Shown piece by piece: positions 7,561 to 62,569 of a stretch of 64,000 nt of DNA (positions are counted from its first letter, which is position 1; each line of letters starts with the position of its first letter). Source of the DNA: Amphibalanus amphitrite (Eukaryota > Arthropoda > Thecostraca > Balanomorpha > Balanidae); NCBI RefSeq assembly GCF_019059575.1, contig NW_024881678.1, forward strand, positions 248,001-312,000, given 5' to 3'. The translations under genes and the position numbers were made by a program. Below the pieces are notes generated by a model, which was given only the letters and a program-made list of their open reading frames with translations, searched no databases and was not told where the DNA came from.

Positions 7561-7562
7561 TC

Positions 7563-9243: not shown

Positions 9244-9784
9244 CCACGGCCTTGGTCCGTATGTGTCCGCGGTTCACATCGCTGGGTTCACTTCATTTGG
9301 CTTTATTGTATGCTGTTATTTATGCTTGTTATTTATGCTTGTGCTGCACTTTCAAACACATTTTTTTGTATGTAAGCATCTTCATCAATAGGTACCATTA
9401 ATAAGTTTTTTTTTTTAATTTGTAGGTGCGTAATAATGCACCCAGAGCACTAAAGAGTCAAGCGTCAATGCACCCATGCCTGTGATTAGTTTGAGTTTAA
9501 CCTCTTGAGTATGGCTCAAATCATACAATGGTAATGGATTCTAATAGAAATTGATATTGTTGTGATGCTTTTGGCCTAGACAATAAAAAAGTGCATAAAA
9601 ATTAATATTAAGATGTTTATTAAAAATCCAAAGCTAAAAAAAACACCAAATGTAGCATGATGCACACAGTACTCATTGTTGATGTCCATTTCTGATGTAC
9701 TTGTGAGGCATGTATTGTGACCGAGGCCTCTCGTCTGCTGCCTGCTGGGCGATGGTAACTGCTTGAATCATCATTGACACACAT

Positions 9785-9976
9785 TGGCCCTGTTCATGTG
9801 TCTGCGGGTGCGGCCGCTCTGCGTTAATAAAGTCAGGGCCTAGCTAGTGGCCAATTAGGGTGGCGGGAACGGGAACTGCCATATCTGTGTGACGTGTGTT
9901 GCCTGATTGGCTGTTAGCTTAGCCCTGCCTTTTGACCGCAGGAGCCATGGGTGCCACAGACACTCAAACAGGGCCA
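9785..9976. mobile_element. MITE with about 25-bp imperfect terminal repeats
   Basis: The left end TGGCCCTGTTCATGTGTCTG is mirrored by CAGACACTCAAACAGGGCCA at the right, with two or three mismatches. The interior is GC-rich and noncoding. I could not find a convincing target duplication. Confidence 0.6.
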
Positions 9977-10381
9977 TGGAATGTTAAAAGAAATCATAGA
10001 GGAGATAGAAATGCTTCTAACAGATTTGCACAACACTTAAGCTGAACTGTTACTCTTAGGTTAGTTTTTGACCTTTTTTGCTTCAATTGATGCTCTAGAT
10101 GAGATTATATTTATGATACCTACTACATTCACTCATTACCCTTTCCCTTTTCCGCTCATTGCATGCAAGATTGGGTCATATACTGAGACGGATTTCATTG
10201 TTATAACTGATCAGTGAAGGCCAATGGACTTGGAATGAATTCCATTTATAGCACTTCAGGTGAACCCTGGTGTAGTGTGCTGCAGTAGTCAGCAGCTTCA
10301 AAATAAGCCAAATACTGTCAGCAATTAGGTAAGACTGAACTTGATGCTAATTTTTGTATTTTCCAGCTTCTCCCCATCACC
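9977..10381 (+). other. Upstream flank of RECQL5
   Basis: AT-rich sequence with no coding frame. A TTTTCCAG splice-acceptor-like sequence ends at about 10366, 15 bases before the RECQL5 start codon. The transcript may therefore begin in an unseen noncoding exon further upstream. No promoter element is convincing. Confidence 0.35.
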
Positions 10382-18757
<8,376 letters not shown>

Positions 18758-39240: not shown

Positions 39241-39568
39241 AATTTGTAGCGGGGCTCGGCTGCAAGATATTTTATTTGTTTGTTTGATTTGCGAGGCTGG
39301 TCAGTCACTGGCGGACACATAGACTGCTACACTGATGGAGTGGGCAATGGGGTTAAGTTGGAATGCAAAAAAAGGATCTCTGACAAGGTTACCCTGATAA
39401 ATCTCTCTTCCCGATCAAAGGATTAAAATAACGAAAGTTCATTAACGTTGCAAACTTCCATTAACTGCACAGAGGGGCGCCTCCCACTGGATATAACCAT
39501 TCATGCTCCCATTCACACCATCATGCACACTTCCCATTCATACAAATTAAAACACCAGGTCGCTAAAC

Positions 39569-42100
39569 CAGGGGCGGCGGATTCGGGGGGGCAGGGGGGG
39601 CAGCTGCCCCCCCTGGCAAAATCGTGGGGGGGGGCAAAAGTATCTTTTTGCCCCCCCATAATTTGCGACAAAGCTTAGACAAGAAACCATATACCTGATT
39701 ATTCTGTTCGATCATCTGAAGATGTAACCAGATGCCCATATACTTTCAAACGTTGTCTTTCTTAATTGGCAAGCGTTCGCGTTCAATTGAAGTTTTCCTC
39801 TCTTCAACTTAGTTTTGGAGGCATTATAAGCGTCAACATGACGCACCGGCAACCCAGGCCTTCAGTGACCGCTTACAGGGGCGACAGATACAGGCAGAGG
39901 AGGCATCGTCCCCTAAGAAACTTTTGGAGGAGGGGCAAACGTTACAACGTATATTCTTGCCCCTCCATAATTTGTGCCCTAATCATGAAGAAAATTTCAT
40001 AACCTGATATTGCAGCTATGCGCTCCTACAGTTTGTCCAACGGTGCCTTTTGAATATGTGTAAATGCCAACCATTTCCGCTTTATATCATTTTTTTTTGT
40101 CTTTTTAGATTCGATTTAGAGATATTTTAAGTGTGCAAGAGACGCAACTCATACCTTCAGTGGTCGTTTGCCGCTATTTTGTACCTACATAAATGCCAAA
40201 TCGCAAGCGATCGGAGACGGAAGGGCTAGCCATTCGTTTGCGGGTAGTTAGGACTGATGCGCTCATAATAAGCCACTCGCCTGATTTTTTTTTCAAGCGC
40301 AACAGTTTCCAGCGCATAAAATGGTAAACGCCGAGGTCGTACTTACACATTGACCACATTGACCAATGCACGGTCGACGGTATGGTATGACACCCAAAAG
40401 CCAGTCATCAGAGATCTGCTTTGGGCATTCGGAGGCTTGTGTGGGGCCAGTGTTAAAACTGGATGTTCACAGTTCAGTATCCGCTTTATTTCAGTTTTTA
40501 CTATTAAAAAAACAAAAATTAATGATGGAAACTTTTGAGGGTTAGGGCACTGATCATTAGTGCCCCCCCCCCCCCCCTCTGTCTATAGGCTGGCTATAGA
40601 ATAAAGAGCATCAACCACGAACAGTAGCGGCGGAACACCTTCAATTAAGGGAGGGGGGGACACTGCCGACTTTTGGTCCCATTCTTTCCATGAAATGCCA
40701 AAATCAAAGGGGGGCACGGTGCCCCCGTGCCCTCCCCGTTCCGCCGCCTATGAACACGAAAGCAAAATCTAAGGCATTTTGGAAAAATGAGTATGCCCCG
40801 CAGCGTCCGATAACTACCACTTTCCATTGGGTCAAGCCAACCAAGTGTATAGCTATGAATATTTTTTTATTCATATATTATTTTCATAATATTATATATT
40901 CATATATTCATAATATTATTTTAGTATGTATATACTTGGCTTGGCCAAGTGTATACACTTGGCCAAACCAAGTGTATAATGGCACTTAACGATAGCACTA
41001 ACCTTGTCTCACTTTTCGTTGAAGTCTGTTCCGAATGGTTTCGGCCACAGACTGGCTGCACTGAGGTCGTTTGGTATGTGCAACTGTAATTAAAGCCACC
41101 TGAGGCGCCCTGACACCAGGCTGAAGCTGGGTTGGAAATGCTTCGTCTTTGCAGATATCACTGGCCACTGATTCTCGAGTGCCTGAACCGGTAGATGTCG
41201 TGGCAAAATTTGGTGTGATAATTTGGACCTCACCGCAGTCAGCACACCCTAAGGCCCTAATAAAGAAACGCCCCACCCAGAGCTTCTGGATTCTCGTTCC
41301 AGTCCAACGTTCCTTCACCTCAGCCCGCCGCCGCGCTCCCTCGCCCTCCGTTCCCAGCTTGACGAGCGTTTGGGCCTTAGTTAAGCCATGCTGTAGGCTT
41401 ACTGTATAAACCCATCGAGACAGCCCGTCTCGGTGAGTTTAGTTGGCGAACTACTGCCTTGGGGTGGGTTTCTGGCGGATTGCTGTCCCAATAGGTTTAG
41501 ATGCGACCGACTGTCTCTGAATGTTTGAGCGGTCTCCTCCCGCTGTGAGCTAGTTTCAGTTGATATCTGTCTCAGAAATACTTTTTAATGGAAGGTTAAG
41601 CGGAAATCGAACGTAAAATGAACAGAAGAAATGGTAACCAGTTACCTCATTGCAAAGAATAGCGCTCGCCTACTTCAAAAGGTTTGGCACCGTTCTTCAA
41701 CATCTGATATGCGATCGGGTTATGGCACAATTTTTCCCATTGGAGCTTTTTTTCTAATACAGCAATACGAAAAGCGTTACATCGTCCACTGGCGGATCCA
41801 GGGAGCGGGCATTTAATGCAAATATTTACTCCCCCTCCCCCTGGCTCCTGCATCGCCCGAAATAGACAAAACGTACCTTATGTTTCCTAATAATAACACT
41901 TTTATCATATTTTTTTGCTTTATGCTGTTCAGCAGTAGGTAAGCCCGTAAGGAATCGAAATCCGAGGAGTTTTTGGATTTTGGACACTTTTTTGGGGGTA
42001 TGTCCCCTACAGCGTCGAAAACGCCTTTCTGGATCCGCCTATGACATTATATCGACTGGGATCTTGCCCCCCCACGCCAAAATCGAATCCGCCGCCACTG
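39569..42100. mobile_element. hAT-type element, 2.5 kb, inside the 3' LTR
   Basis: The ends CAGGGGCGGCGGATTCG and CGAATCCGCCGCCACTG are inverted. The 8-bp target CGCTAAAC is duplicated at 39561-39568 and 42101-42108, while the other LTR has it once at 52557-52564. The interior holds G/C-runs, the sequence TTGCCCC(C)CCATAATTTG twice (39648 and 39957), an ACTTGG/CCAAGT palindrome cluster near 40930-40975 and a nested MITE. No hAT transposase domain is recognised, so it is non-autonomous. Confidence 0.88.
40622..40752 (+). mobile_element. hAT-type MITE nested in the 2.5-kb hAT element
   Basis: Third copy of the family at 2822-2974, starting CAGTAGCGGCGGAACACC and ending GTTCCGCCGCCTATG. The flanking 8-mers ACCACGAA and AACACGAA match at seven of eight positions. 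It is a nested insertion or was carried along with the host element. Confidence 0.75.
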
Positions 42101-44828
42101 CGCTAAACTGGCCCCTCCCTGTTTACCTAACCTCCCCCAGTGGTGTACAGTAGCCGTTCGTAAGCATGCGTCAAAACCTTTGTCCTTTGCCATTATACAT
42201 GATCTCTGGAAATTTCCTTCTTAAGATTTACGTCCGTTGCTTGATAAAATGTATTATTCCCCATTCGACTGCTATAGTTCTCTCTTAAAGCTCGCCCCTA
42301 AAAGAAATACAACCCTTCCCAAAATACTCATTAACTCCAACCGGCTTTATTCACCTTGCGATTTCCGTTTACAATTAACCAATATGGCTCAATCATCATA
42401 GATAATACCGATCGAGTGACAATAACATACACGTCATACCTTGTCGGATCTTGGCCCTCCCCTCTTTCTGATATCTACGGCAGCGGAGGCCTGAAACCCT
42501 AACATTAAACGCCCCAGTCACATGATCGACGCAAGACGGGCTAAGGGTGCGTGGCGGCACGATGTGAACGAGTGCTGCCGCCGTCTTAGTGCCGACATGT
42601 GATGGGCCTAACCCGCACGTCGCCGGTGGCGCGGCCGTGCCCTACCTATCCCCCGGGTCATAAAACTGTCAGTTAGGTTCCGCAGGTAACACTACACCGT
42701 AGGTTCTATGAGGGACATAACCTATCCTTTTGCCGGAGTGAGATTTTAAAGCAGGCCGGATTTCCCTGCCTTTTAGAGGGTCCAACCCTCCTTCCGAATC
42801 ACTCCGGGTGGCCGAAATTTAAGGACGACTCAGCAACTTCGCCCCGTGGTGCCCTTACCGCGCCAAACCACGCCCGTGGGGTATTCCATCTTCCCACACA
42901 CCCCGGGTCCCTTCCCGCCCAGGGGCCTTGGAGCAGCCGGACCTATCTGCCACTACCCCGCATCTGGCCGGAGGGAGTACTTAGTGCACCTTTCTGGAGG
43001 CCTCCCTCTTCCAGGATCTTGAGACCAATAATAATGCGTCTTTCTGACGCGCTAGTCTCCCCCCCCCCCCCCCCTTCGGGACGCCACCCGAGTTTCTACA
43101 CGGCCTTCGAGTTACCGCCCTTCTCTGGACCCCGATATCCCGGCCGTTCCCTCCCTAAACTGCCGTCGCAGACCCTACTCGAAATGACCAACGCGCGCCC
43201 ATGGCTACGTGGCTGCCCGCGACATGGCCAGTGTCGGCTCGCAGCCCTCACATGGTTCGCACGCGTGGTATATATATTGTTACCTGGTCGGCCCCGGAAC
43301 TCAAGCCGGTTTCCCGCGCCACTCCGGCGCAATACCCTTCCTATATCTTCCTGAATACCTTCCCGCGCTATACCTGCGCAATAATTAGCAGCGTGACCAG
43401 GTCCTACCCAATTCCGTTCTCGTGACCTGCTGGTGAACGGTTTCCTGCGGTGGACTCCGTTCGGCAGGACACGCCGGATACATCCTAACTTTTTTATCAC
43501 CGGAGTGGGGAGTTATAGGCGGGCGGGATGCTTCCTGCCTGAGGGGTATACCGATCCATGCCGATCGACCCTCGCTTTAGAACCACTCCGGCGGCCGAAA
43601 TGTTGACGAACGGGTGAACAATCCCGTACGGTGGCTCTCTCCGCGACAACCCACGTTCGTGAGACGCTGTGCCCTCACGCAATACCGGGGAAAACTCACA
43701 CCCTGAATCGAACATTCCTGCATGAGGACCTCCCGTAATCGAGCAACACTTTCTGTGTCCCTCTGAACTGGTCATTGGGGAGATATAAGATCTGAAAGGC
43801 ACCGTTCTGGCACCTCCCCAAAGCCAGGTGGTGCGACGGCCTGTACACTCATCGTGAATGCTCCGTCGCACCCCACCGGTTTCCCGCCTGAGTCACCAGG
43901 ACTTAAAAGTTCCTTAAATCTTAGCCGAGACCAAGACACGGCTATTTATTTTGCCCGACTTACGCCGTAGAAACATCCAGAGGGGCATTTGACGAGCCAG
44001 ATCATTCAAACGTAAGAGCATGTTGTTTGAGTCACTTGGGTCGTCGTCACTGTCTACTGAATGATGTTGAACCTTTGCCCGAAATGCGTTTATCTCAAAA
44101 TGACTCAGAGTAAAACGCGCACAAAATAATCAAGTAAACGAAATTATTTATATCTAACTACCTTAGGACGGAGAACCTACGAAACAAGCCAACAGAGCCG
44201 ATCTCCTTAGTGTTCAGCACACAATAACCAAATTTAATACTTCCTCGTCTCATACACCTGAATTGTAACCGTAACTCCCCGACCTCCTCTTGGCCCAGAA
44301 ACCTAACGTCCTGACCTCCCGGTGGCCTTACTCGTACCCGACCTGTACCCCCCATTAGACCGGCCTTCCTACCCTTTTACTACCTTGGCTCTCTATAACC
44401 TTCCCTATGAACTGTAATCTCGTTCTGATTCGATACCAACTTAAACGAGCACTGACATACATTTACCATAGTTTAGTCATTCAATAGCTTAATTTAAACT
44501 CTCCTCCCCCACTCCCATTTCTCATCAGTTAAGTAGTCGCGTCGGTGGGCTTATCACACACAGGGGTGTCACATGCATAGACAGCCTCGCAGCCCCTAAA
44601 CATTACGCCAACCAATGTATCCCATATCTGTATCCTTTATCCTATACTTAGCTCGTAATCCCTCCTAGAGTATCCCATCCTTAAAAAAAACATAAAAAAC
44701 ATAAAAAACAAAACTACGATCATGTTCGCCCTTAACATACTAAAGTTACCACTGCTACCGACACAGAATCTAAGAAAGCAGGGCCCTACGCGCATCGGTC
44801 GCCGAACCGGGTTTCGAACTGGAATCAA

Positions 44829-45618
44829 TGACGTCATCAAAGGGTCGGAATGATACTTTTACTGTTCTCAGAAGCGCGCGCGTATGAATGGTGCACCCTG
44901 CCCCGGCATGTCGAGAGTCCTGTGTCAATGACGTCACTCATCGATGGTCACGGCAAGAGTAGTTCCGATGACGTCATCAAAGGTTCCAAACGAGTCCTTT
45001 TTCTACTCTCCAATGTAAATGCATATGAATGGCACGATTAGCCCGACGTACCGAGGGCTCCGGGCCTATGACGTCACTCATCTGAGGGCACTGTTGGCAT
45101 TAGGCCCATGACGTCACGAGGGTGATCGACGTGAGTTCCTTGGTCACCATGAATAGTGGGCGCGGTCCGGGAGAGCACGCGTGGGCCGGGGCTATAGCAC
45201 CCGTCAAGTGCACAATTGGAGCGGCCTGCATAGCCCCGGAGGGCACCGATCGACAAAATCTCCCTTCACATTGCCTGAGGGCAGATGTCACGCCCCTGAC
45301 AGCGATCGGCCAGCTCTGCAGTGAGCTTTGCAGCCCTTTACTGGGATAGAACCAGTAGCTGCCCATAACGCACCACCGCCGCCCCTCTGAGACGGGCCCT
45401 GCTCCCCGCTGGCAGTTAATCCCCTTTAGTGACCACTCGCTGGGGTCGGGCGGCTGCCTTCTGCTTGAGAATGGCGCGGGGCGCCATGCCCGTCTGTATA
45501 GGGTGGTCCTCTGGACCGTCTCCAGGAAGGAGTGATGCTCTTTTACGCCACGGGGTGGCGCGCAGAGCATATTTGGCGACGATCGGTGACGTGCGTCACC
45601 CGGGCCATAGTGACGTCA
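44829..45618. promoter_or_regulatory. Cluster of six perfect CRE sites in the 3' LTR
   Basis: TGACGTCA occurs at 44829, 44929, 44969, 45069, 45109 and 45611. The first five alternate at 100 and 40 bp, giving a 140-bp period. They belong to a degenerate 140-bp tandem repeat that also contains TCAAAGG after the site and a TATGAATGG motif. The octamer is the binding site of CREB/ATF bZIP factors. The cluster is a candidate LTR enhancer; activity is inference. Confidence 0.7.
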
Positions 45619-46067
45619 CTCAGGGGTGACCGTCACGCTGGACCACCTGTCAACTCGGTCGGCCAGCTCGGCAGCGAACTCGGCAGCGGGCTAACTGGAC
45701 TGGAGTCACTAGCCGTCCATACAGCACGGCCGTCCGCTGCTCCCCTCTTGGGGTCTCCCCGACCAGACGGCGGTGTACCCTGTCCCGGCGCCGGTCGGCT
45801 GGTATGCGTTAATGACCCTGACGCCGCCGTGAACCGAGCGGACGGTGAGGATTATCGGCGCGGGCGCCGGCCCGGCGCGGTTTCTGCTCGACTGCGGGGA
45901 CCGCTTCCGTCTACCGCGGCGACATGCTATTATGAGTGCGGCGCGCTGGACACCTATCGTACTGATCGTTTACAATCGTGATTCCTCTCGTGTTATGTAA
46001 ACAATCGACACCACTCGCAATGGAGGGACCTTTCCGGGCAAAATGAATGGGAAGTCGAAAGATAAAG

Positions 46068-46075
<8 letters not shown>

Positions 46076-46116
<41 letters not shown>

Positions 46117-46140
46117 AAGAGAGAGAGGGGGAGAGAGAGG

Positions 46141-46230
<90 letters not shown>
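46076..46230. repeat. (GA)n microsatellite in the 3' LTR
   Basis: An interrupted GA tract with GGGG interruptions, longer in the other LTR (56759-56948). Arg/Glu and Ser/Leu frames over it are artefacts. Confidence 0.97.
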
Positions 46231-46231
<1 letters not shown>

Positions 46232-46683
46232 GAGGGAAGTGGATGATGTGAGCGGTTTTAGGGAAGGGCTAACTGCAGGGAAGGGGAGCCAGACAACCAG
46301 ACATTCATGTACGGTCGCCATACACACCGACCGACATTTTGACAAATCCACGGACCGACAATCTAACCCATTTGACAGAAGCACGTGCAGACAATTGGAC
46401 CGACAAACCGACGGGGTGGCTAGCGAGACAGGTCGACTCTCTCACCGACTGGATGACGTGCAATCTGACGAATAAACAGACGAAAGGGCTGGCAGACCGA
46501 CATGATTGTCCGACCGACCGACTAAACCACCGGCAGACTGATCGACGGACTGATCGACCGTCGGACTAGCAAACAGCCAGATAGACAGACAGTCCGGCAG
46601 ACAGGCAGACAAACAAACAGACCGGCAGACCGACAGACTGACAGACTGACAGGCCAGACCGACAGACAGATGGGCTGACAGAG

Positions 46684-46687
46684 AGAC

Positions 46688-46779
<92 letters not shown>
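46684..46779. repeat. (CAGA)n microsatellite in the 3' LTR
   Basis: An uninterrupted four-base repeat, preceded by a longer region of degenerate GACAGACCGAC-type sequence (46300-46680). Cys-Leu-Ser-Val frames over it are artefacts. The counterpart in the other LTR (57411-57529) is longer. Confidence 0.97.
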
Positions 46780-49700
46780 GACTTATCGATCGACTGGACG
46801 AGGACCACAGGTTGGAAGGTGGCGGTGTCGATTATTTATACACATACTTGAATGCACTGTGAAATGGATCAACTTTAGTATCCGTTAAATGCTAGATGAC
46901 TTGAATGATCCTCGGGTTTAACCTGATTATCCAGACGATTCTCAACTAATATAATGCCCTAATTAACAACTAACTGCATTGATCTCCTCCTTTACAAACA
47001 AAAGTCCATGTTCAACCGTTCTTTGACAGCGTAACTAATTGCTTGTCACTGACCTAGCACGGCCCCGACACGCTCCCGACGCGCGCCCGGCCGTCCGTCC
47101 CGCTCCGACTCGCTAATCCGCCGCTCCGCCCGGCCCGTCTGATCCCTTCCCATGCGGCAGACCGCCCCCCCCGCATTCCTTCCGAGAGCGCAGCTGACCG
47201 TCGCCACCCGGCCGCGGGTTGAGTGATTAATGGCACGCGATTGTTCCTATTCTTTCCTTGGATAATCCTATAACTTAATCACCAGGACAGCTAATGATAT
47301 AAATGTGAAGCGTACTACTGCATTTTGCCGTGTCGTAAGGAATCTGAACGCAAAGCAATTCTGTAAGTCGATCGAGGCGATATCGAGCTATTCATGAATT
47401 ATAAGAATAAGTCGGATTGCTTCCTATCAAACGTTCTACTTTACTTTGGAGAACGAACTATAATTACAGTTTAAAATTAACCGCAAGCACGTCTATTTCA
47501 CTTACGTTATTAAAACCACAATAAAGAAACGGCAAAACACAAAGTACAGCGTCATGGCACGTAGATTATTTCAAACTATTTGAAAATAAGGACCTAACAG
47601 ATGCTGCATAAAACAAATTATTAGCTGATCAGATAAGTCTGAGGTGTGAGCTACTGATTCTAAACCGAAATTAACCTGAGATATCCGAAATGAAGGCCGG
47701 TAAATGACGATAATGGACTGACGATAAGTCGCAACGAGGTATAAATTAACTGGAACCCGAACAAAATAAACAGAACAAAAAAAAAATCATTTAAATGCTG
47801 GGAAACTTAACTACGGAACCACCATCACTGAACTATACGTCACCAGTGATCAGCCGACCGGCCGGCCGGTTCAGCCGTATCGCTAGCACAGACGTTGATG
47901 TGAGACAAATCATTTTCGCCGCCGGAATCCTCGTGATTAGTGGACCCATCATGTGTCCTGTTGATACCCACACCATATTCCCCCAGTCTTGTCACCTGCA
48001 AGGCTCACTGAAGTGTCCCGGCCCCACCATAAACGTGTTTAAACTCCCCGATCGCTCCCCATTTGTGATCTCATTTCCCAATTAACTCTGAAAGAATCGT
48101 TCCACTATTCCCGGTTTTATTCACAAAGGCGAAGAGATCAAATTAGCCAAAGACTTTACACCGACCAATTATAAAGAGAAATCGATATCAAATTTAAGAT
48201 AACAGCGCTAATAACCTATTTCCCTAAGAGCTGGTGGTACGAATGGCAAACCAAAGTAACTAACTGCAATCAAACCCGGAGGCCGGACGATAGGCCAGTC
48301 AGATAATTAACACGCGCAGACAGAGAGCATTCTTCCCCCCCCCCCCCTCAGAGATTAACCCGGGGAGCACCTCTGATGAGCGGAGCAGAGCCCGACCACG
48401 ACGCCACGCCACAGTGCCACCTGTGTCAGGGCACGCCTCCCCTGTGACCCTGCTAATGAACCCATCGATTATCCCCACCCACCACACTCACATACACTCA
48501 CACCTATTCTACTGTCCCCTCTAATCAGATCCATCAGTAACCAATAAGGCCGGATTAATCACCTCAGGGAGAGAGAGAGACCAGGGCGGCAAACAGGGCA
48601 CATGATAAGGAAAAGATGGGCTGAGCAGACTTGTGCCACCAGTGCTGACCTTTTGGTGCTGGGTGCCAAATTTGCTACAATGGCTGGCTGGGTGGCGCTG
48701 AGCTGACCGTTGAATGACGAGAGATTGAGACGAGCAGACGAGGCGTGGTACCGGCGCAGACTGCGAATGTGACCGGCGAGCAGGTCTTGGCTCCCGTGCA
48801 GGGACTTACTTGTTTACTGGCGTCAGCCCTCTGGGTCGTCGAGCCGGCGGCGGGAAGCTGGCCATGACCGGAGAGATAGAGATGAGGGCAGGCGCCAGAC
48901 GGCGCCGACCCGTCCACCTCTTGCGTCACCACCGACTCGACTGTGCTCCACTGTCTCTGTCTGTCCTTGTTGTCCTGAGGCCCCTCCTCTCTCTTTTCTG
49001 CCCTTTTTGTATCCCTCTCGCCGCCTCCTCGGGCCATCTTCTGAATCCTCAACTTCGCTCCGCCCCTTTTCTGTCGATATCGGTTGTATTTCTTGCCAAA
49101 AAGGTTCATGTTTCCATCAGTTTGACCCTGGATTTGAGCTTTAAATCGTCCAACTTTTGCAGCGCGCCCTCCGGGGGCCGTAGTCATGGTGATATTTTGT
49201 CTTCAACGGTGCTCCTCCTATTTCGAATTTTCCTTTCTCTGATAGGTGGGAACTCATAAGCTCCCACCCCTTCCCACAAAAATGTAACCTCAGGGCCAGC
49301 TGCCATGGTGTCGTAGCTCCGCCCACATTTCCATCTTCCATTCGAGCCTCAGACGCACTCCTGACGCCGGTCGCGGAGGATGGGGAGAGGCGGAGCGGCG
49401 GTCCAGCTGCATATGGGTCACCGCATAATGGTGCTCCATGTCCCGGAATTCGGCGGAGTCCTTGATTAATACCGAGCGGCCTGAAATAGCAATACTTTTC
49501 TTCTTTTAGCTCCCCCTCTCCCCCGATGCCCGCCCTGCCAGACGTGCCCTCCATGCCGATGGTGATCGCAGGCCGACGCCGGCCGTCTGGTGGGGGGGGG
49601 GGGGGGGGGGGGGAGGGTGTGGGAGTCGAGAGATGACCCATTTCGCACGGCGGCCGGTGCCGAAAACAGCTGCGCCCTGCTTGCCCGGTGACGGTTCCTG

Positions 49701-50546
49701 GTGTTATGCTCCTGCCACTGCGTGCCTTCCAGGTGATCGCGTGTTTTTGAATGGCACGCGTGTCCGGGTCAACTGAAGCCGACGCCGGCCGTCTGGTGGG
49801 GTGCGGGTAGGGGGCCGAAAGATGACCTCTTTCCCATCGCGAGCGTCGCCAAAGCAGGTGCGCTCTGGTGTTATGTTCCCGTCACTGCGTGCTTTCGAGG
49901 TGGCCCCGTGTTTTCGATGGCGCACATGTCCGGCTCGGTCCCTGCTTCCCTTTCTGTTTTTCTACTTACAAATCGGGGCCGGTCTCCACTCCCTTCTTTC
50001 AGTGATGGCCCGGCGGATCAATTGAACGTAGCGCTGTCGTGTGCTACCCTTTCAGAATGTTGTTCTGTTGAGTCCGGTCGGAATTTTCTCATGGTCGTCG
50101 GACGGTCATCGGTGGAATTGCCAGTTATTTTTGGATGTCAGCTGCCGTGAGAGAGCCGGGCCTGGACAGATGCTGATCCTCTGTGCATTGTGTGTGCGTC
50201 GTGCGGCGCACGCAGGTGGCTGGGGTCGGCCGCCGGACGACTGATGATCCTGTTTATGAAAAGGGTCGGGCGCCAGACGGCATGGCCGGCCGCTCACGCT
50301 TCGGAGATTAGAGTGGGAGCAGTGGCCCGCTCCCCTTCCATGGCCTAAATAGTTGTGTCTTTGCAGCTGCCCTCCTTCGCGCCTGGCCCCGTCCCCGGCT
50401 GAAATTGTTGGTCGGAGAGGAGCCGTCCTCGCTGCTAGTGTATATCTTGGTTTTGAATTTTGATGGAGCCGGTTGGCAATCTTTGGCTTGGTGTGCCGCG
50501 GCCGGGAGCCGGCGTCCGCTTGGAAAATGAACGCGCCAGCGTTACA

Positions 50547-50566
50547 TTTTCATGACCATTTTCTTT
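50547..50566 (-). promoter_or_regulatory. Candidate polypurine tract
   Basis: The minus strand reads AAAGAAAATGGTCATGAAAA immediately before the 3' LTR. It is purine-rich apart from three or four bases, so it is a plausible but imperfect plus-strand primer site. Confidence 0.4.
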
Positions 50567-52217
50567 GAGTCGCGCCCCCGCGACTCGGGGTCGGTGCTTG
50601 CGTTTTGGTAGGAAGAGGCCTTGTACGAAAACGATTGCTTCGATAAGGGTTGGGAAGGATAAGGATTGCACCCTGCTGCTTGGCCCCCTCGCACCCTTCC
50701 TGTGTATCTGGCCCTAGTCACTGATTAACCTGCAAATAATAATTAACACCTTACACGTATTTAAAGTGTTTCCGGTTTTGCAATGATAAATTTTCAGGAA
50801 CTACACGATTCAATTGACCTACCGGCATAATCGCACAATATCAGCAGCACAATTACATATGCATTACACTTGTAGCATATTTACATTCACAAAAGGTCTC
50901 TCGGGCGCGTCACTCGGCCGTTCGCTCTCTGCCAGCCTTGCGGACTAGCTGAGGTACTAGGCCTGACGCATTGTCCGGATTCCGATGATCTGGCGGGCAC
51001 GGGCTGTTAAGGCTCGAGCTCTTTGCGGTAGGCGGCCCCCGCCTCCTGTAGCCGGGAGGGCCAGATGAGGCAAGTGGATGCTGCCCCGGCAGCTGCCACG
51101 GCCCGCTCCACTGCCGGTCCGTCGCCTGCTGCGTCGGTGTGGACGGCAGCGCCGGCGGGCACGGCCCCCCACGAGACGAGGGAGCGCCTCGGCAGCCATC
51201 CTCGCCAGCTCTACCTCCAGCCAGTCACCTGCCGTTGTCGGTATAGGCGGCAGCGCCGGCGGGTGCGGCCGCTAGCGAGACGAGCAAACGCCTCGGCAGC
51301 CAACCTCGCCAGCACCGCCTCGATCCTCCTGGAAGCCAGCTCCTCCTGTAAATAAAAGAGCGGGGAGGGCAGGCAGAAGACCTTTCGGCGATGATGGCGA
51401 CGCGGCCCTCCGTCGCGCCCTCCTTTCTCAGACAGCTTTGCCTCGGCCGTGATCTGCTCCCAGTTGTCGTCCTCTTCTCGGGTTCTTCCTCTCACCAGCT
51501 TGTAGTCCGCTCCAGTTTTTCCCGTTCCATTTTCCTCCACTTCTGGTAGTTTCGCCTCTTGTGATTCCTCTCCTCCGCCAGCTGCTCCACCGCTCCAGTT
51601 GTTCCCTCCGCTCCAAACCACCATTTGTTCTGATACCGCTGCCAAACGTCTGCCTTTGTGACTCAGGCCACCCTTCAACATCTTCATGGATATTGTTTTC
51701 AGTACTACAACATCTTCATATATGCCCCCAGCCAGCAACTGCCACAATCATACCTTCGCATCCAGTAACATAAAGCCGCCACCAACCCTTAAACTGCCAA
51801 AACGTCTTCCTTTGTAATTTAGGTCAGCTTTCAACATTTTAATAGATAAACGAATGCTCAAACCTTCAACATCTTCATACCCCCAGCCAGCCAGTAAAGC
51901 AATGCAGTTATTGTCCAAATCAAATATTTGCCATTAACATTTAATTTTAGCCGCCCCTGTGCTCATACAGTTGCAAAGCCTCCTTTCTGGTTCGGGTTAA
52001 CTTTCAACATCTTCCTTGACAAACTAATGCTCAGACCTTCAACATCTTCAGTTCTCCAGGAGCCTCTGGCCAACCGTACGCCGCAGGAAACACTGGGCAC
52101 ACCTGTCACCTGAAAAGTCTCCTGGAAAATCCGTTCTTGCAGTTTTCGGTAAAACAACTTTTTCCGTTCGGCTATGCATGTCAGCCCACCGACTTCATGC
52201 CACCAGGACATGACCAC

Positions 52218-52235
52218 GCCCCACGTTGGGCGCCA
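52218..52235 (-). promoter_or_regulatory. Candidate tRNA primer-binding site
   Basis: The minus strand reads TGGCGCCCAACGTGGGGC, seven bases inside the 5' LTR. It begins with TGG, complementary to the CCA end of a tRNA, as expected for minus-strand priming. The primer tRNA was not identified. Confidence 0.7.
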
Positions 52236-55200
52236 AATTTCTTGTAGCGGGGCTCGGCTGCAAGATATTTTATTTGTTTGTTTGATTTGCGAGGCTGGTC
52301 AGTCACTGGCGGACACATAGACTGCTACACTGATGGAGTGGGCAATGGGGTTAAGTTGGAATGCAAAAAAAGGATCTCTGACAAGGTTACCCTGATAAAT
52401 CTCTCTTCCCGATCAAAGGATTAAAATAACAAGTTCATTAACGTTGCAAACTTCCATTAACTGCACAGAGGGGCGCCTCCCACTGGATATAACCATTCAT
52501 GCTCCCATTCACACCATCATGCACACTTTCCTTTCATACAAATTAAAACACCAGGTCGCTAAACTGGCCCCTCCCTGTTTACCTAACCTCCCCCAGTGGT
52601 GTACAGTAGCCGTTCGTAAGCATGCGTCAAAACCTTTGTCCTTTGCCATTATACATGATCTCTGGAAATTTCCTTCTTAAGATTTACGTCCGTTGCTTGA
52701 TAAAATGTATTATTCCCCATTCGACTGCTATAGTTCTCTCTTAAAGCTCGCCCCTAAAAGAAATACAACCCTTCCCAAAATACTCATTAACTCCAACCGG
52801 CTTTATTCACCTTGCGATTTCCGTTTACAATTAACCAATATGGCTCAATCATCATAGATAATACCGATCGAGTGACAATAACATACACGTCATACCTTGT
52901 CGGATCTTGGCCCTCCCCTCTTTCTGATATCTACGGCAGCGGAGGCCTGAAACCCTAACATTAAACGCCCCAGTCACATGATCGACGCAAGACGGGCTAA
53001 GGGTGCGTGGCGGCACGATGTGAACGAGTGCTGCCGCCGTCTTAGTGCCGACATGTGATGGGCCTAACCCGCACGTCGCCGGTGGCGCGGCCGTGCCCTA
53101 CCTATCCCCCGGGTCATAAAACTGTCAGTTAGGTTCCGCAGGTAACACTACACCGTAGGTTCTATGAGGGACATAACCTATCCTTTTGCCGGAGTGAGAT
53201 TTTAAAGCAGGCCGGATTTCCCTGCCTTTTAGAGGGTCCAACCCTCCTTCCGAATCACTCCGGGTGGCCGAAATTTAAGGACGACTCAGCAACTTCGCCC
53301 CGTGGTGCCCTTACCGCGCCAAACCACGCCCGTGGGGTATTCCATCTTCCCACACACCCCGGGTCCCTTCCCGCCCAGGGGCCTTGGAGCAGCCGGACCT
53401 ATCTGCCACTACCCCGCATCTGGCCGGAGGGAGTACTTAGTGCACCTTTCTGGAGCCCTCCCTCTTCCAGGATCTTGAGACCAATAATAATGCGTCTTTC
53501 TGACGCGCTAGTCTCCCCCCCCCCCTTCGGGACGCCACCCGAGTTTCTACACGGCCTTCGAGTTACCGCCCTTCTCTGGACCCCGATATCCCGGCCGTTC
53601 CCTCCCTAAACTGCCGTCGCAGACCCTACTCGAAATGACCAACGCGCGCCCATGGCTACGTGGCTGCCCGCGACATGGCCAGTGTCGGCTCGCACCCTCA
53701 CATGGTTCGCACGCGTGGTATATATATTGTTACCTGGTCGGCCCCGGAACTCAAGCCGGTTTCCCGCGCCACTCCGGCGCAATACCCTTCCTATATCTTC
53801 CTGAATACCTTCCCGCGCTATACCTGCGCAATAATTAGCAGCGTGACCAGGTCCTACCCAATTCCGTTCTCGTGACCTGCTGGTGAACGGTTTCCTGCGG
53901 TGGACTCCGTTCGGCAGGACACGCCGGATACATCCTAACTTTTTTATCACCGGAGTGGGGAGTTATAGGCGGGCGGGATGCTTCCTGCCTGAGGGGTATA
54001 CCGATCCATGCCGATCGACCCTCGCTTTAGAACCACTCCGGCGGCCGAAATGTTGACGAACGGGTGAACAATCCCGTACGGTGGCTCTCTCCGCGACAAC
54101 CCACGTTCGTGAGACGCTGTGCCCTCACGCAATACCGGGGAAAACTCACACCCTGAATCGAACATTCCTGCATGAGGACCTCCCGTAATCGAGCAACACT
54201 TTCTGTGTCCCTCTGAACTGGTCATTGGGGAGATATAAGATCTGAAAGGCACCGTTCTGGCACCTCCCCAAAGCCAGGTGGTGCGACGGCCTGTACACTC
54301 ATCGTGAATGCTCCGTCGCACCCCACCGGTTTCCCGCCTGAGTCACCAGGACTTAAAAGTTCCTTAAATCTTAGCCGAGACCAAGACACGGCTATTTATT
54401 TTGCCCGACTTACGCCGTAGAAACATCCAGAGGGGCATTTGACGAGCCAGATCATTCAAACGTAAGAGCATGTTGTTTGAGTCACTTGGGTCGTCGTCAC
54501 TGTCTACTGAATGATGTTGAACCTTTGCCCGAAATGCGTTTATCTCGAAATGACTCAGAGTAAAACGCGCACAAAATAATCAAGTAAACGAAATTATTTA
54601 TATCTAACTACCTTAGGACGGAGAACCTACGAAACAAGCCAACAGAGCCGATCTCCTTAGTGTTCAGCACACAATAACCAAATTTAATACTTCCTCGTCT
54701 CATACACCTGAATTGTAACCGTAACTCCCCGACCTCCTCTTGGCCCAGAAACCTAACGTCCTGACCTCCCGGTGGCCTTACTCGTACCCGACCTGTACCC
54801 CCCATTAGACCGGCCTTCCTACCCTTTTACTACCTTGGCTCTCTATAACCTTCCCTATGAACTGTAATCTCGTTCTGATTCGATACCAACTTAAACGAGC
54901 ACTGACATACATTTACCATAGTTTAGTCATTCAATAGCTTAATTTAAACTCTCCTCCCCCACTCCCATTTCTCATCAGTTAAGTAGTCGCGTCGGTGGGC
55001 TTATCACACACAGGGGTGTCACATGCATAGACAGCCTCGCAGCCCCTAAACATTACGCCAACCAATGTATCCCATATCTGTATCCTTTATCCTATACTTA
55101 GCTCGTAATCCCTCCTAGAGTATCCCATCCTTAAAAAAAACATAAAAAACATAAAAAACAAAACTACGATCATGTTCGCCCTTAACATACTAAAGTTACC

Positions 55201-55278
55201 ACTGCTACCGACACAGAATCTAAGAAAGCAGGGCCCTACGCGCATCGGTCGCCGAACCGGGTTTCGAACTGGAATCAA

Positions 55279-56068
55279 TGACGTCATCAAAGGGTCGGAA
55301 TGATACTTTTACTGTTCTCAGAAGCGCGCGCGTATGAATGGTGCACCCTGCCCCGGCATGTCGAGAGTCCTGTGTCAATGACGTCACTCATCGATGGTCA
55401 CGGCAAGAGTAGTTCCGATGACGTCATCAAAGGTTCCAAACGAGTCCTTTTCCTACTCTCCAATGTAAATGCATATGAATGGCACGATTAGCCCGACGTA
55501 CCGAGGGCTCCGGGCCTATGACGTCACTCATCTGAGGGCACTGTTGGCATTAGGCCCATGACGTCACGAGGGTGATCGACGTGAGTTCCTTGGTCACCAT
55601 GAATAGTGGGCGCGGTCCGGGAGAGCACGCGTGGGCCGGGGCTATAGCACCCGTCAAGTGCACAATTGGAGCGGCCTGCATAGCCCCGGAGGGCACCGAT
55701 CGACAAAATCTCCCTTCACATTGCCTGAGGGCAGATGTCACGCCCCTGACAGCGATCGGCCAGCTCTGCAGTGAGCTTTGCAGCCCTTTACTGGGATAGA
55801 ACCAGTAGCTGCCCATAACGCACCACCGCCGCCCCTCTGAGACGGGCCCTGCTCCCCGCTGGCAGTTAATCCCCTTTAGTGACCACTCGCTGGGGTCGGG
55901 CGGCTGCCTTCTGCTTGAGAATGGCGCGGGGCGCCATGCCCGTCTGTATAGGGTGGTCCTCTGGACCGTCTCCAGGAAGGAGTGATGCTCTTTTACGCCA
56001 CGGGGTGGCGCGCAGAGCATATTTGGCGACGATCGGTGACGTGCGTCACCCGGGCCATAGTGACGTCA
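55279..56068. promoter_or_regulatory. Cluster of six perfect CRE sites in the 5' LTR
   Basis: TGACGTCA at 55279, 55379, 55419, 55519, 55559 and 56061, the same arrangement as in the 3' LTR, offset by 10,450 bp. All six octamers are unchanged between LTRs. Confidence 0.7.
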
Positions 56069-56160
56069 CTCAGGGGTGACCGTCACGCTGGACCACCTGT
56101 CAACTCGGTCGGCCAGCTCGGCAGCGAACTCGGCAGCGGGCTAACTGGACTGGAGTCACT

Positions 56161-56390
56161 ATTTATTTATTTATTTATTTATTTATTCCTCGTCCTCCAC
56201 ACGGGATGTTTTCCCATTTATGGGAGGGCTCCTGCTCCTCCTCAGGGCTACGGTGCAAGGCGGGAGCCCACCCCACCCCCCAGTGACACAGTTGGGGACG
56301 CCAGTCCGGAAGCCGGGCGGCACCGGGGGTCGAACCCGGGTCCTCCCGACCACAGAACCGACGCCTTACCAACTGCGCCACTGGAGCCGC
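56161..56390 (-). mobile_element. tRNA-derived SINE in the 5' LTR
   Basis: On the minus strand: head with TGGCGCAGTTGGTAAGGCG (A box) and GGGTTCGACCCC (B box), then about 130 bp of body and an (AAAT)n tail. The other LTR lacks it: TGGAGTCACTAGCCGTCC is continuous at 45701-45718. The target duplication is short (CACT). It is distinct in sequence from the intronic SINE at 36975-37180. Confidence 0.88.
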
Positions 56391-56751
56391 CACTAGCCGT
56401 CCATACAGCACGGCCGTCCGCTGCTCCCCTCTTGGGGTCTCCCCGACCAGACGGCGGTGTACCCTGTCCCGGCGCCGGTCGGCTGGTATGCGTTAATGAC
56501 CCTGACGCCGCCGTGAACCGAGCGGACGGTGAGGATTATCGGCGCGGGCGCCGGCCCGGCGCGGTTTCTGCTCGACTGCGGGGACCGCTTCCGTCTACCG
56601 CGGCGACATGCTATTATGAGTGCGGCGCGCTGGACACCTATCGTACTGATCGTTTACAATCGTGATTCCTCTCGTGTTATGTAAACAATCGACACCACTC
56701 GCAATGGAGGGACCTTTCCGGGCAAAATGAATGGGAAGTCGAAAGATAAAG

Positions 56752-56949
<198 letters not shown>

Positions 56950-57405
56950 GAGGGAAGTGGATGATGTGAGCGGTTTTAGGGAAGGGCTAACTGCAGGGAA
57001 GGGGAGCCAGACAACCAGACATTCATGTACGGTCGCCATACACACCGACCGACATTTTGACAAATCCACGGACCGACAATCTAACCCATTTGACAGAAGC
57101 ACGTGCAGACAATTGGACCGACAAACCGACGGGGTGGCTAGCGAGACAGGTCGACTCTCTCACCGACTGGATGACGTGCAATCTGACGAATAAACAGACG
57201 AAAGGGCTGGCAGACCGACATGATTGTCCGACCGACCGACTAAACCACCGGCAGACTGATCGACGGACTGATCGACCGTCGGACTAGCAAACAGCCAGAT
57301 AGACAGACAGTCCGGCAGACAGGCAGACAAACAAACAGACCGGCAGACCGACAGACTGACAGACTGACAGGCCAGACCGACAGACAGATGGGCTGACAGA
57401 GAGAC

Positions 57406-57529
<124 letters not shown>

Positions 57530-59897
57530 GACTTATCGATCGACTGGACGAGGACCACAGGTTGGAAGGTGGCGGTGTCGATTATTTATACACATACTTG
57601 AATGCACTGTGAAATGGATCAACTTTAGTATCCGTTAAATGCTAGATGACTTGAATGATCCTCGGGTTTAACCTGATTATCCAGACGATTCTCAACTAAT
57701 ATAATGCCCTAATTAACAACTAACTGCATTGATCTCCTCCTTTACAAACAAAAGTCCATGTTCAACCGTTCTTTGACAGCGTAACTAATTGCTTGTCACT
57801 GACCTAGCACGGCCCCGACACGCTCCCGACGCGCGCCCGGCCGTCCGTCCCGCTCCGACTCGCTAATCCGCCGCTCCGCCCGGCCCGTCTGATCCCTTCC
57901 CATGCGGCAGACCGCCCCCCCCCCGCATTCCTTCCGAGAGCGCAGCTGACCGTCGCCACCCGGCCGCGGGTTGAGTGATTAATGGCACGCGATTGTTCCT
58001 ATTCTTTCCTTGGATAATCCTATAACTTAATCACCAGGACAGCTAATGATATAAATGTGAAGCGTACTACTGCATTTTGCCGTGTCGTAAGGAATCTGAA
58101 CGCAAAGCAATTCTGTAAGTCGATCGAGGCGATATCGAGCTATTCATGAATTATAAGAATAAGTCGGATTGCTTCCTATCAAACGTTCTACTTTACTTTG
58201 GAGAACGAACTATAATTACAGTTTAAAATTAACCGCAAGCACGTCTATTTCACTTACGTTATTAAAACCACAATAAAGAAACGGCAAAACACAAAGTACA
58301 GCGTCATGGCACGTAGATTATTTCAAACTATTTGAAAATAAGGACCTAACAGATGCTGCATAAAACAAATTATTAGCTGATCAGATAAGTCTGAGGTGTG
58401 AGCTACTGATTCTAAACCGAAATTAACCTGAGATATCCGAAATGAAGGCCGGTAAATGACGATAATGGACTGACGATAAGTCGCAACGAGGTATAAATTA
58501 ACTGGAACCCGAACAAAATAAACAGAACAAAAAAAAATCATTTAAATGCTGGGAAACTTAACTACGGAACCACCATCACTGAACTATACGTCACCAGTGA
58601 TCAGCCGACCGGCCGGCCGGTTCAGCCGTATCGCTAGCACAGACGTTGATGTGAGACAAATCATTTTCGCCGCCGGAATCCTCGTGATTAGTGGACCCAT
58701 CATGTGTCCTGTTGATACCCACACCATATTCCCCCAGTCTTGTCACCTGCAAGGCTCACTGAAGTGTCCCGGCCCCACCATAAACGTGTTTAAACTCCCC
58801 GATCGCTCCCCATTTGTGATCTCATTTCCCAATTAACTCTGAAAGAATCGTTCCACTATTCCCGGTTTTATTCACAAAGGCGAAGAGATCAAATTAGCCA
58901 AAGACTTTACACCGACCAATTATAAAGAGAAATCGATATCAAATTTAAGATAACAGCGCTAATAACCTATTTCCCTAAGAGCTGGTGGTACGAATGGCAA
59001 ACCAAAGTAACTAACTGCAATCAAACCCGGAGGCCGGACGATAGGCCAGTCAGATAATTAACACGCGCAGACAGAGAGCATTCTTCCCCCCCCCCCCCCC
59101 TCAGAGATTAACCCGGGGAGCACCTCTGATGAGCGGAGCAGAGCCCGACCACGACGCCACGCCACAGTGCCACCTGTGTCAGGGCACGCCTCCCCTGTGA
59201 CCCTGCTAATGAACCCATCGATTATCCCCACCCACCACACTCACATACACTCACACCTATTCTACTGTCCCCTCTAATCAGATCCATCAGTAACCAATAA
59301 GGCCGGATTAATCACCTCAGGGAGAGAGAGAGACCAGGGCGGCAAACAGGGCACATGATAAGGAAAAGATGGGCTGAGCAGACTTGTGCCACCAGTGCTG
59401 ACCTTTTGGTGCTGGGTGCCAAATTTGCTACAATGGCTGGCTGGGTGGCGCTGAGCTGACCGTTGAATGACGAGAGATTGAGACGAGCAGACGAGGCGTG
59501 GTACCGGCGCAGACTGCGAATGTGACCGGCGAGCAGGTCTTGGCTCCCGTGCAGGGACTTACTTGTTTACTGGCGTCAGCCCTCTGGGTCGTCGAGCCGG
59601 CGGCGGGAAGCTGGCCATGACCGGAGAGATAGAGATGAGGGCAGGCGCCAGACGGCGCCGACCCGTCCACCTCTTGCGTCACCACCGACTCGACTGTGCT
59701 CCACTGTCTCTGTCTGTCCTTGTTGTCCTGAGGCCCCTCCTCTCTCTTTTCTGCCCTTTTTGTATCCCTCTCGCCGCCTCCTCGGGCCATCTTCTGAATC
59801 CTCAACTTCGCTCCGCCCCTTTTCTGTCGATATCGGTTGTATTTCTTGCCAAAAAGGTTCATGTTTCCATCAGTTTGACCCTGGATTTGAGCTTTAA

Positions 59898-61071
59898 CCC
59901 GCGCGGGGCTGGGGGGGGGTAAATTTTACCCCCCCTCGCGAATTTTTGCGATATCTCAAAAACGGCGGCGCGCAGCGCCGCCAAACTTTTAGTACCTTTT
60001 CTTACATCAATTTGACACATTCCCTGAAAATTTGAGCGAAATCCGTCGGAAAAAATTTTGAGAAATTGACGTTTTAGTGACGTCATGTTCGCCATTTTCG
60101 CCTAAAAAACGGCAAAAGTTCAAACGCCGCTAACATCTTCATTTTTAAAGGAATCAAGACGTAACAAAAAAGGTTATACGTAATTTTACTTTGTCTATCA
60201 AATGGCTATCTCGGTTTTTTGAAAATTTTGGATTTTGGCCTAAATTTTTTCAAAAAACTAACTTTTTTTGGAAAATCATTATAAAATCCAAAATTTTGAG
60301 TCTATCGAAAAAACCGGAATATATGTCATAGAAGTGGTCTATGTGCACCTACATACCAAATTTTAGAAGAATCGGTTCAAAAATGTGGGAGTTATTCAAA
60401 ATTTTATGACGTCACGACACACAAAATTTTTGAAAAATGACTTTTTTGGAAGTTCTAGACCTCGTACGGAAACAAAAATAGCACCATTCGATTCGCCGTG
60501 AAAAACTGCATCAGATAGACACCTCTTTAGGCCTTAACAACCAACTTCAAAATTTGACCTCACTTGACCTGACCTTGACCTGACCTTGACCTGAAATTCA
60601 TCCAGAGGTGGTCCATATCACTTATTGAGTGTGCCTATTGAATTCTATGAGTAAAATGACCCATAAAACATGTGTCGCACATGCCCTTTTCTATATTTTG
60701 TTTTTTGGTGACCTGACCTGACCTGACCTGACCTTGACCTTGACCTCTGAATGATATTGTATGCAACAAATATTGTCTTGGTAGCCTAAGAACACGTTTT
60801 GGGCGATCAGTCTCAGTCCATGACTCCATTCTTCGGTAACTACGGTGCAAGGCCGATACTGTAGAAACTTGCAATTTGTACCCTTGACCTGACCTTGACC
60901 TTGACCTCAAACTTTAAATTAAGTACATGTTTTTAGTAGTTCGTGATGAGAGCTTTCGATTGGCGTTTGAATTTTCCAAATCGGACCATTAGTTCGGGAG
61001 ATAACAGGGGGGGTAAAATTTACCCCCCCCCAGCCCCGCGCGTTCGGCTGGAGACCCCAGCCCCGCGCGGG
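59898..61071 (-). mobile_element. TTAA-flanked non-autonomous element, copy E
   Basis: It sits in the 5' LTR between TTAA at 59894-59897 and 61072-61075; the other LTR has a single TTAA at 49141-49144. The ends are CCCGCGCGGGGCTGGGG (left) and CCAGCCCCGCGCGGG (right), with the terminal motif repeated inward at the right end. Just inside, GGTAAATTTTACC palindromes carry G/C-runs. TGACC arrays lie at 60555-60595, 60708-60750 and 60883-60910. The interior is related to copy C. Confidence 0.92.
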
Positions 61072-62569
61072 TTAAATCGTCCAACTTTTGCAGCGCGCCC
61101 TCCGGGGGCCGTAGTCATGGTGATATTTTGTCTTCAACGGTGCTCCTCCTATTTCGAATTTTCCTTTCTCTGATAGGTGGGAACTCATAAGCTCCCACCC
61201 CTTCCCACAAAAATGTAACCTCAGGGCCAGCTGCCATGGTGTCGTAGCTCCGCCCACATTTCCATCTTCCATTCGAGCCTCAGACGCACTCCTGACGCCG
61301 GTCGCGGAGGATGGGGAGAGGCGGAGCGGCGGTCCAGCTGCATATGGGTCACCGCATAATGGTGCTCCATGTCCCGGAATTCGGCGGAGTCCTTGATTAA
61401 TACCGAGCGGCCTGAAATAGCAATACTTTTCTTCTTTTAGCTCCCCCTCTCCCCCGATGCCCGCCCTGCCAGACGTGCCCTCCATGCCGATGGTGATCGC
61501 AGGCCGACGCCGGCCGTCTGGTGGGGGGGGGGGAGGGTGTGGGAGTCGAGAGATGACCCATTTCGCACGGCGGCCGGTGCCGAAAACAGCTGCGCCCTGC
61601 TTGCCCGGTGACGGTTCCTGGTGTTATGCTCCTGCCACTGCGTGCCTTCCAGGTGATCGCGTGTTTTTGAATGGCACGCGTGTCCGGGTCAACTGAAGCC
61701 GACGCCGGCCGTCTGGTGGGGTGCGGGTAGGGGGCCGAAAGATGACCTCTTTCCCATGGCGAGCGTCGCCAAAGCAGGTGCGCTCTGGTGTTATGTTCCC
61801 GTCACTGCGTGCTTTCGAGGTGGCCCCGTGTTTTCGATGGCGCACATGTCCGGCTCGGTCCCTGCTTCCCTTTCTGTTTTTCTACTTACAAATCGGGGCC
61901 GGTCTCCACTCCCTTCTTTCAGTGATGGCCCGGCGGATCAATTGAACGTAGCGCTGTCGTGTGCTACCCTTTCAGAATGTTGTTCTGTTGAGTCCGGTCG
62001 GAATTTTCTCATGGTCGTCGGACGGTCATCGGTGGAATTGCCAGTTATTTTTGGATGTCAGCTGCCGTGAGAGAGCCGGGCCTGGACAGATGCTGATCCT
62101 CTGTGCATTGTGTGTGCGTCGTGCGGCGCACGCAGGTGGCTGGGGTCGGCCGCCGGACGACTGATGATCCTGTTTATGAAAAGGGTCGGGCGCCAGACGG
62201 CATGGCCGGCCGCTCACGCTTCGGAGATTAGAGTGGGAGCAGTGGCCCGCTCCCCTTCCATGGCCTAAATAGTTGTGTCTTTGCAGCTGCCCTCCTTCGC
62301 GCCTGGCCCCGTCCCCGGCTGAAATTGTTGGTCGGAGAGGAGCCGTCCTCGCTGCTAGTGTATATCTTGGTTTTGAATTTTGATGGAGCCGGTTGGCAAT
62401 CTTTGGCTTGGTGTGCCGCGGCCGGGAGCCGGCGTCCGCTTGGAAAATGAACGCGCCAGCGTTACAAATTCACCGCAAGTATGACGCCAGAAAATGTTCG
62501 CAAAAGCACTTTAATGAGCTGGGTTTGCTGATTGTCGGACCCTTTCCCTTATCGCATTCCTACCTCGCT

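Follow-up and report, generated by a model that had tools for sequence, protein, structure and literature searches.

Can a genuine retrotransposon consist almost entirely of its long terminal repeats (LTRs), and which element would then move it? This question is raised by a locus of Amphibalanus amphitrite (assembly GCF_019059575.1, contig NW_024881678.1), of which we analysed the 64,000 nucleotides from 248,001 to 312,000, hereafter the window, whose own numbering is used below. A first-pass annotation, made from the sequence alone, had described at 39245-62466 an LTR retrotransposon with LTRs of about 8.8 kb and an interior of 1.7 kb devoid of gag-pol. We found that the element is a real, recently moved retrotransposon that is nearly all LTR. 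Furthermore, it is very probably a genuine non-autonomous member, lying on the minus strand, of an env-bearing Ty3/Gypsy clade with giant LTRs, and we infer that it is mobilised by a gag-pol-env element of the type present in contig C195.

At 39245-62466, two direct LTRs with TG..CA ends enclose an interior, and the tetranucleotide AATT lies outside both of them (39241-39244 and 62467-62470) as a target-site duplication (TSD), which is the structure of an LTR retrotransposon and places the edges exactly where they had been proposed. The orientation of the primer site indicates that the element sense is the minus strand, with the 3' LTR at 39245-50546 (11,302 bp), the interior at 50547-52242 (1,696 bp) and the 5' LTR at 52243-62466 (10,224 bp). 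The different length of the two LTRs stems mainly from three later insertions, one in the 3' and two in the 5' LTR; after their removal, 8,762 and 8,812 bp are left, in agreement with the size first put forward. The LTR pair thus trimmed shows 15 mismatches over 8,742 aligned positions, nine of them within one (GA)n array, and 90 gap columns, so that the claim of near-identical LTRs and recent movement holds. In the interior, gag, pol and env were not found, and the longest frame, of 178 codons, has no Pfam match. The minus-strand orientation, the three insertions and the occurrence of giant LTRs in all the gag-pol-env elements that we examined had escaped the first-pass annotation, as had the absence of any coding cargo from the LTR frames that were tested.

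The sequence noted beside one LTR as resembling a primer site is an 18-nt primer binding site, TGGCGCCCAACGTGGGGC (52218-52235, minus strand), located 7 nt from the LTR and complementary to tRNA-Lys(CTT). The 22-nt 3' part of this tRNA has four exact matches in the genome (none for the control), and both of the match places retrieved are tRNA-Lys(ctt) genes. The purine-rich tract reported beside the other LTR is present at the 3' LTR, in a polypurine region adjoining it (50547-50566, minus strand; sense AAAGAAAATGGTCATGAAAA), but in the window copy the tract (AAAGAAAATGG) is modest and stands at some distance from the LTR, and it is clearer in relatives, for example in C8 (AAAGAAGAGGA).

Next to this region we identified a hairpin, GAGTCGCG-GGGG-CGCGACTC (50567-50586, minus strand), with compensatory changes across families. 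A hairpin occupies the equivalent position, directly upstream of the polypurine tract, in the retrieved stretches L064, L074, L076, L078 and L011 as well. For the alignment we used 12 of the 21 extracted junctions, leaving out near-duplicates; each of the 12 could fold, roughly 20 nt upstream of the 3' LTR, into a hairpin with 7-8 bp, five of the eight pairs show two-sided changes, and 98.9% of the 94 cells are paired, compared with 14-45% in slid controls. None of 500 shuffles matched the observed pairing, the two-sided changes or the covariation score, and the further pair types did not exceed the shuffle level (402/500); these values refer to a structure picked after viewing the sequences and to an alignment in which nine of the 12 junctions are close relatives. 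Perfect 7-bp stems are expected here about 0.03 times per 40 nt. A second palindrome, in the first 15-23 nt of U3 (the unique 3' part of the LTR), is imperfect and weak (-1.2 to -8.1 kcal/mol in the six sequences folded). With its compensatory changes, the hairpin beside the polypurine tract is a possible cis signal and, as such, a concrete candidate in env-bearing Gypsy elements. In addition, an AATAAA at 52269-52274 (minus strand), 32 nt from the 3' end of the LTR, may act in polyadenylation; it was not found at the equivalent LTR place in C195, C332, C289, C110 or C54. If it were a true polyadenylation signal, U5 (the unique 5' part) would be very short and almost the entire LTR would consist of U3 or of the repeated R region.

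The first-pass annotation had proposed a genome search for further copies, and such copies are dispersed. A 25-nt LTR-start pattern, with at most two mismatches, has 87 matches in the genome (reversed control, 0), and the primer-site/LTR junction has 31 (control, 0). A 24-nt LTR-end pattern, which detects some subfamilies only, gave 29 matches at no more than one mismatch and five with three mismatches (control, 1). The counts of 87 and 31 include haplotype duplicates. In particular, five contig pairs carry an identical insertion with the same flanks (C969/C1281, C1151/C1175, C143/C910, C223/C53 and C951/C428), and thus the assembly seems to retain both haplotypes at some loci and the copy counts are inflated. 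Both outer ends could be read in 18 cases, which correspond to 15 distinct loci, and a perfect 4-bp TSD occurs at 14 of the 15 (AATT, TTTT, GAAG, CCTA, CAAA, TTAC, TAAC, TGTG, GTGG, ATAT, GGAC, TCTG, ATAG and CTTC). The copies are therefore not confined to one tandem block, and duplications accompany the same ends elsewhere, two points on which the first-pass annotation had made its reading depend. Since the loci are independent and have different flanks, a misassembly is unlikely.

Sorted by match pattern, the 31 junctions fall into three groups: 17 lead into the window type of interior, 13 into that of a second type, called family B, and one into a gag-pol-env element. The family B interior measures about 1.84 kb and was read in C4 and C1095, and in C54 its start only. 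Lone LTRs measuring 5.0-11.6 kb, judged to be solo LTRs from their length and the absence of a primer-site junction, occur in C918, C412, C1436, C151, C1151, C143 and C31. In C8 and C752, three LTRs and two interiors form tandem arrays. Frames for gag (DUF7041) and protease-reverse transcriptase in C4 (L063, positions 1-2425) were considered as the autonomous interior of family B and rejected, for they are located inside the giant LTR of a family B copy and outside its 1,842-bp interior; they probably belong to a nested, unrelated gypsy element.

The similarity between LTRs of different subfamilies is patchy. In C322, the LTR matches that of the window at 95% over positions 1-738 and at 85% over 806-2850, and the family B LTRs of C10, C4, C340 and C1378 are 94-95% identical to it over positions 691-2176 (52933-54418 in the window, 1.5 kb) and only 83-89% identical at the LTR start. 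These LTRs are mosaics, a pattern in keeping with template switching between co-packaged RNAs. We also considered the 1.5-kb segment as a free transposon and rejected this origin, since 37 of the 40 candidates scored (of 81) lie no more than 1 kb from an LTR start. The 38th is the left LTR of the window, where the hAT-like insertion described below has shifted the segment away from the start, and the remaining two, in C783 and C752, lie 6.7 and 7.0 kb from an LTR start and likely sit inside an interrupted LTR.

The search for an autonomous relative, likewise suggested at the outset, led to C195 (positions 5560-14850, retrieved as L064), which has the primer site and the LTR edges in common with the window element. 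Its frames for gag (407 codons), pol (1,667 codons from stop to stop) and env (685 codons) are open, and Pfam recognises zf-CCHC, Retrotrans_gag, RVP, RVT_1, RT_RNaseH, Integrase_H2C2, rve and Baculo_F. C195 therefore shows the features of an env-bearing Ty3/Gypsy element, namely a gag zinc knuckle, the order protease, reverse transcriptase, RNase H and integrase, and an Env of the Baculo_F type. Within the retrieved stretch, its matches to the window element are confined to the cis ends: 58 bp at the interior start (97%), 77 bp at the primer-site end (88%), 66 bp at the LTR start (95%) and 68 bp at the LTR end (90%). The first LTR of C195 is 10,240 bp long and colinear with that of the window, with patchy similarity; the contig start leaves only 5,624 bp of the second, and these bases are 98.9% identical to the first.

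Giant LTRs were also found in more distant env-bearing families. Among the 65 env places listed, the closest to the Env of C195 is 55% identical. In C332 (env 54%), the LTRs are about 6.5 kb long and 99.95% identical, with TSD GCTA; in C289 (env 48%), they measure about 8.2 kb and are identical over the 862 and 553 bases sampled, with TSD TCAA; in C110 (env 48%), they measure 9,466 and 9,470 bp, with TSD CTAA. Thus, the 4-bp TSD is perfect in all three of these families, and LTRs of 6.5-10.2 kb are present in all four env-bearing families examined, C195 included. In a reverse transcriptase search, of which the best 111 of 3,433 candidates were considered, 31 candidates are 55-100% identical to C195 and the next is 45% identical; the matched stretch is free of stop codons in all 31. 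This gap suggests that the C195-like set is a distinct clade, and, as far as examined, giant LTRs mark an env-bearing Ty3/Gypsy clade in this genome. As a side observation, env and reverse transcriptase matches recur in C2132 about every 14,724 bp, which suggests that another family of the clade is arranged there in tandem LTR-interior units.

The assignment given at the beginning draws directly on the observed structure, the dispersal, the TSDs, the near-identical LTRs and the ends held in common with a giant-LTR gag-pol-env element. On this basis the following mechanism can be proposed. The window element has kept the parts that reverse transcription and integration require in cis, namely the tRNA-Lys primer site, the polypurine tract with the hairpin and both LTR edges, and carries an unrelated, non-coding interior of 1.7 kb where gag-pol-env would be. 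A C195-type element would most likely supply Gag, Pol and integrase in trans for the RNA of the window element. In the clade, the LTRs would have grown to 6.5-10 kb, probably in their U3 part, possibly through a ratchet by which sequence gained in the U3 of the 3' LTR would be copied into both LTRs in the next round.

We estimated RNA length by measuring from one LTR start to the other, a span of one LTR plus the interior. The autonomous elements would then have RNAs of 15.7 (C332), 17.1 (C289), 19.0 (C110) and 19.4 kb (C195), and a window-type RNA without later insertions would be about 10.5 kb long. An upstream LTR start was found for 27 of the 31 junctions; excluding C195, 20 of the 26 spacings amount to 7.8-11.3 kb, and the other six to 3.4, 12.3, 13.0 (the window), 15.1, 16.5 and 19.5 kb. 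Passengers and autonomous elements stand at 30 to 1 by primer-site junctions, with haplotypes not merged. More tentatively, and with slightly less than even confidence, we propose that the whole env-bearing clade has made the LTR its main body, with ratchet-grown LTRs of 6.5-10 kb, elements of 22-29 kb and RNAs of about 16-19 kb, and has recently been active; short non-coding interiors would have given rise to abundant LTR-only passengers with RNAs mostly of 8-11 kb, which packaging length may favour.

Several observations weigh against this explanation. The middle part of the window element's interior has no similarity to the C195 interior, so that an origin by simple deletion is unsupported. 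Only a single copy of the C195 type was found, and, with its second LTR leaving the contig, its own TSD is unreadable. For the growth ratchet no intermediate was traced, and the 1.5-kb LTR segment was not encountered as a free element among the candidates scored. The promoter, the R boundaries and the RNA lengths are deduced from the DNA sequence. At C752, one of the three-LTR arrays, the TSD is imperfect (TTAT versus TTAC). Moreover, far shorter LTRs exist that share these edges and lie between perfect TSDs, of 2.3 kb in C923 (GTGG; L034, positions 596-2908) and of 254 bp in C969 (ATAT; L068, positions 101-354). These may be deletion derivatives, formed by internal deletions, or survivors of a short-LTR ancestor.

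Among the alternatives, the one that survives best concerns the identity of the mobiliser, which could be another giant-LTR family, of the C332, C289 or C110 type. These families have open env frames, pol frames open around the reverse transcriptase match and near-identical LTRs, and several of the env places listed are at their level of identity, versus one at that of C195. However, of the four families only C195 matches the LTR edges and the polypurine end of the window element at 90-97%, whereas the others have in common with it the primer site, which in C332 contains an insertion, and short stretches in other places, and we consider such a mobiliser unlikely.

It is also rather improbable that the giant LTR has been retained for a function, be it as an insulator, as an extended regulatory U3 containing (CT)n arrays or through a long non-coding RNA. 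Such retention would agree with the presence of giant LTRs in all four env-bearing families and with (CT)n arrays in four of the six LTRs compared (window, C195, C289 and C54, not C332 and C110). The window LTRs contain a (GA)n array at 46068-46230, with a second copy at 56752-56948, and an (ACAG)n array at 46573-46779, with a second copy at 57291-57529. However, the LTR bodies of different families have little sequence in common, with similarity in patches only. Furthermore, no Pfam match was obtained for the 10 frames scanned of the 36 listed for the window element (at least 110 codons each), the Rfam scan of the LTR gave no match, and translated similarity between LTRs appears on both strands, as in non-coding DNA; in the frames tested, the giant LTRs read as non-coding.

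A further possibility is that an ordinary small LTR has been swollen just by recent nested insertions, which would make its size trivial. Three later insertions are indeed present. The left LTR contains an element of 2,532 bp (39569-42100) that we take to be hAT-like from its ends (CAGNGGCGGCGGATTCG) and its 8-bp TSD (CGCTAAAC); similar sequence occurs on dozens of contigs among the best 40 of 2,665 candidates scored in a genome search. The right LTR contains a presumably tRNA-derived, SINE-like (short interspersed nuclear element) insertion of about 0.23 kb (56162-56395, minus strand) with a TTTA-type tail and CACTA on both sides, and an element of 1,174 bp (59898-61071), by our assumption piggyBac-like, with ends CCCGCGCGGGGCTGGGG and TSD TTAA. 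These insertions show that the window LTRs take up DNA, which counts also for the explanation that we favour, and the short LTRs of C923 and of C969/C1281, the latter a solo LTR with both edges, would agree with a small starting size. Against this, 8.8 kb remain in both LTRs once the insertions are removed, four gag-pol-env families have LTRs of 6.5-10.2 kb, and the short LTRs, few in number, may have arisen by internal deletion, so that swelling by recent insertions alone is very unlikely; its weaker form, in which insertions enlarged the LTRs over their history, belongs to the explanation that we favour. Finally, a duplication, whether tandem or segmental, or a fault of the assembly mimicking an LTR element, which the arrays of C8 and C752 and the haplotype duplicates kept in the assembly could recall, is rejected as hardly credible in view of many contigs with differing flanks, independent 4-bp TSDs at 14 of 15 loci, constant end bases, and a primer site and hairpin at the expected positions.

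How, then, does a non-autonomous element of a giant-LTR, env-bearing clade compare with known systems? The relatives of the window element that were examined resemble env-bearing Ty3/Gypsy elements (gypsy errantiviruses, Metaviridae) in that they have the genes in the order gag-pol-env, an Env of the Baculo_F type, a tRNA primer, LTRs ending in TG..CA and TSDs of 4 bp. Env-bearing gypsy elements have been reported widely across metazoans, also outside insects (PMC13172572). The difference lies in size: the International Committee on Taxonomy of Viruses gives a U3 of 200-1200 nt for Metaviridae (PMC7879559), whereas the 6.5-10.2 kb measured here lie far outside that range but refer to whole LTRs, of which U3 is one part.

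The closest non-autonomous kind is that of the large retrotransposon derivatives (LARDs), such as Sukkula of barley; these are plant elements whose LTRs measure about 4-5 kb and whose interior is about 3.5 kb long. The window element likewise has a non-coding interior and may depend on proteins in trans; different from LARDs, its LTRs are about twice as long, its interior is half as long and it belongs to an env-bearing animal clade. Terminal-repeat retrotransposons in miniature (TRIMs), with LTRs under about 0.5 kb, are likewise non-autonomous and have almost no interior, but the window LTR of 8.8 kb sets the element apart from them. LARDs are described as having a non-coding core, with proteins assumed to act in trans, and TRIMs as having short LTRs (PMC7215508).

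LTRs are commonly said to reach about 5 kb, a length already regarded as large. In plants, large LTRs occur in non-chromoviruses such as Ogre/Tat and in Retrosat2, which are similar to the present elements in LTR and total size and in the tandem repeats of their non-coding parts. For such extremely large LTRs a maximum of about 5 kb is given, the elements themselves reaching about 24 kb (PMC6317226), and thus RNA genomes of about 19 kb need not be unique. Elsewhere, LTR sizes are stated to run from 80 bp to over 5 kb (PMC3485330); the literature searched, which consisted mostly of partial texts and leaves absence from print unproven, offered no LTR size beyond that upper figure. PlantLTRdb, a large plant survey, set an LTR limit of 7,000 bp (PMC10025401), and with size limits of this kind LTR finders would miss or split most giant-LTR elements.

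Hence, the basic kind of element is already known, and what is new and surprising is the degree of LTR size together with its presence in autonomous env-bearing members. Because giant-LTR members of both kinds, autonomous and non-autonomous, coexist in one genome, the limits on LTR and RNA-genome length become testable, and the same clade allows LTR growth and a passenger advantage from shorter RNAs to be tested.

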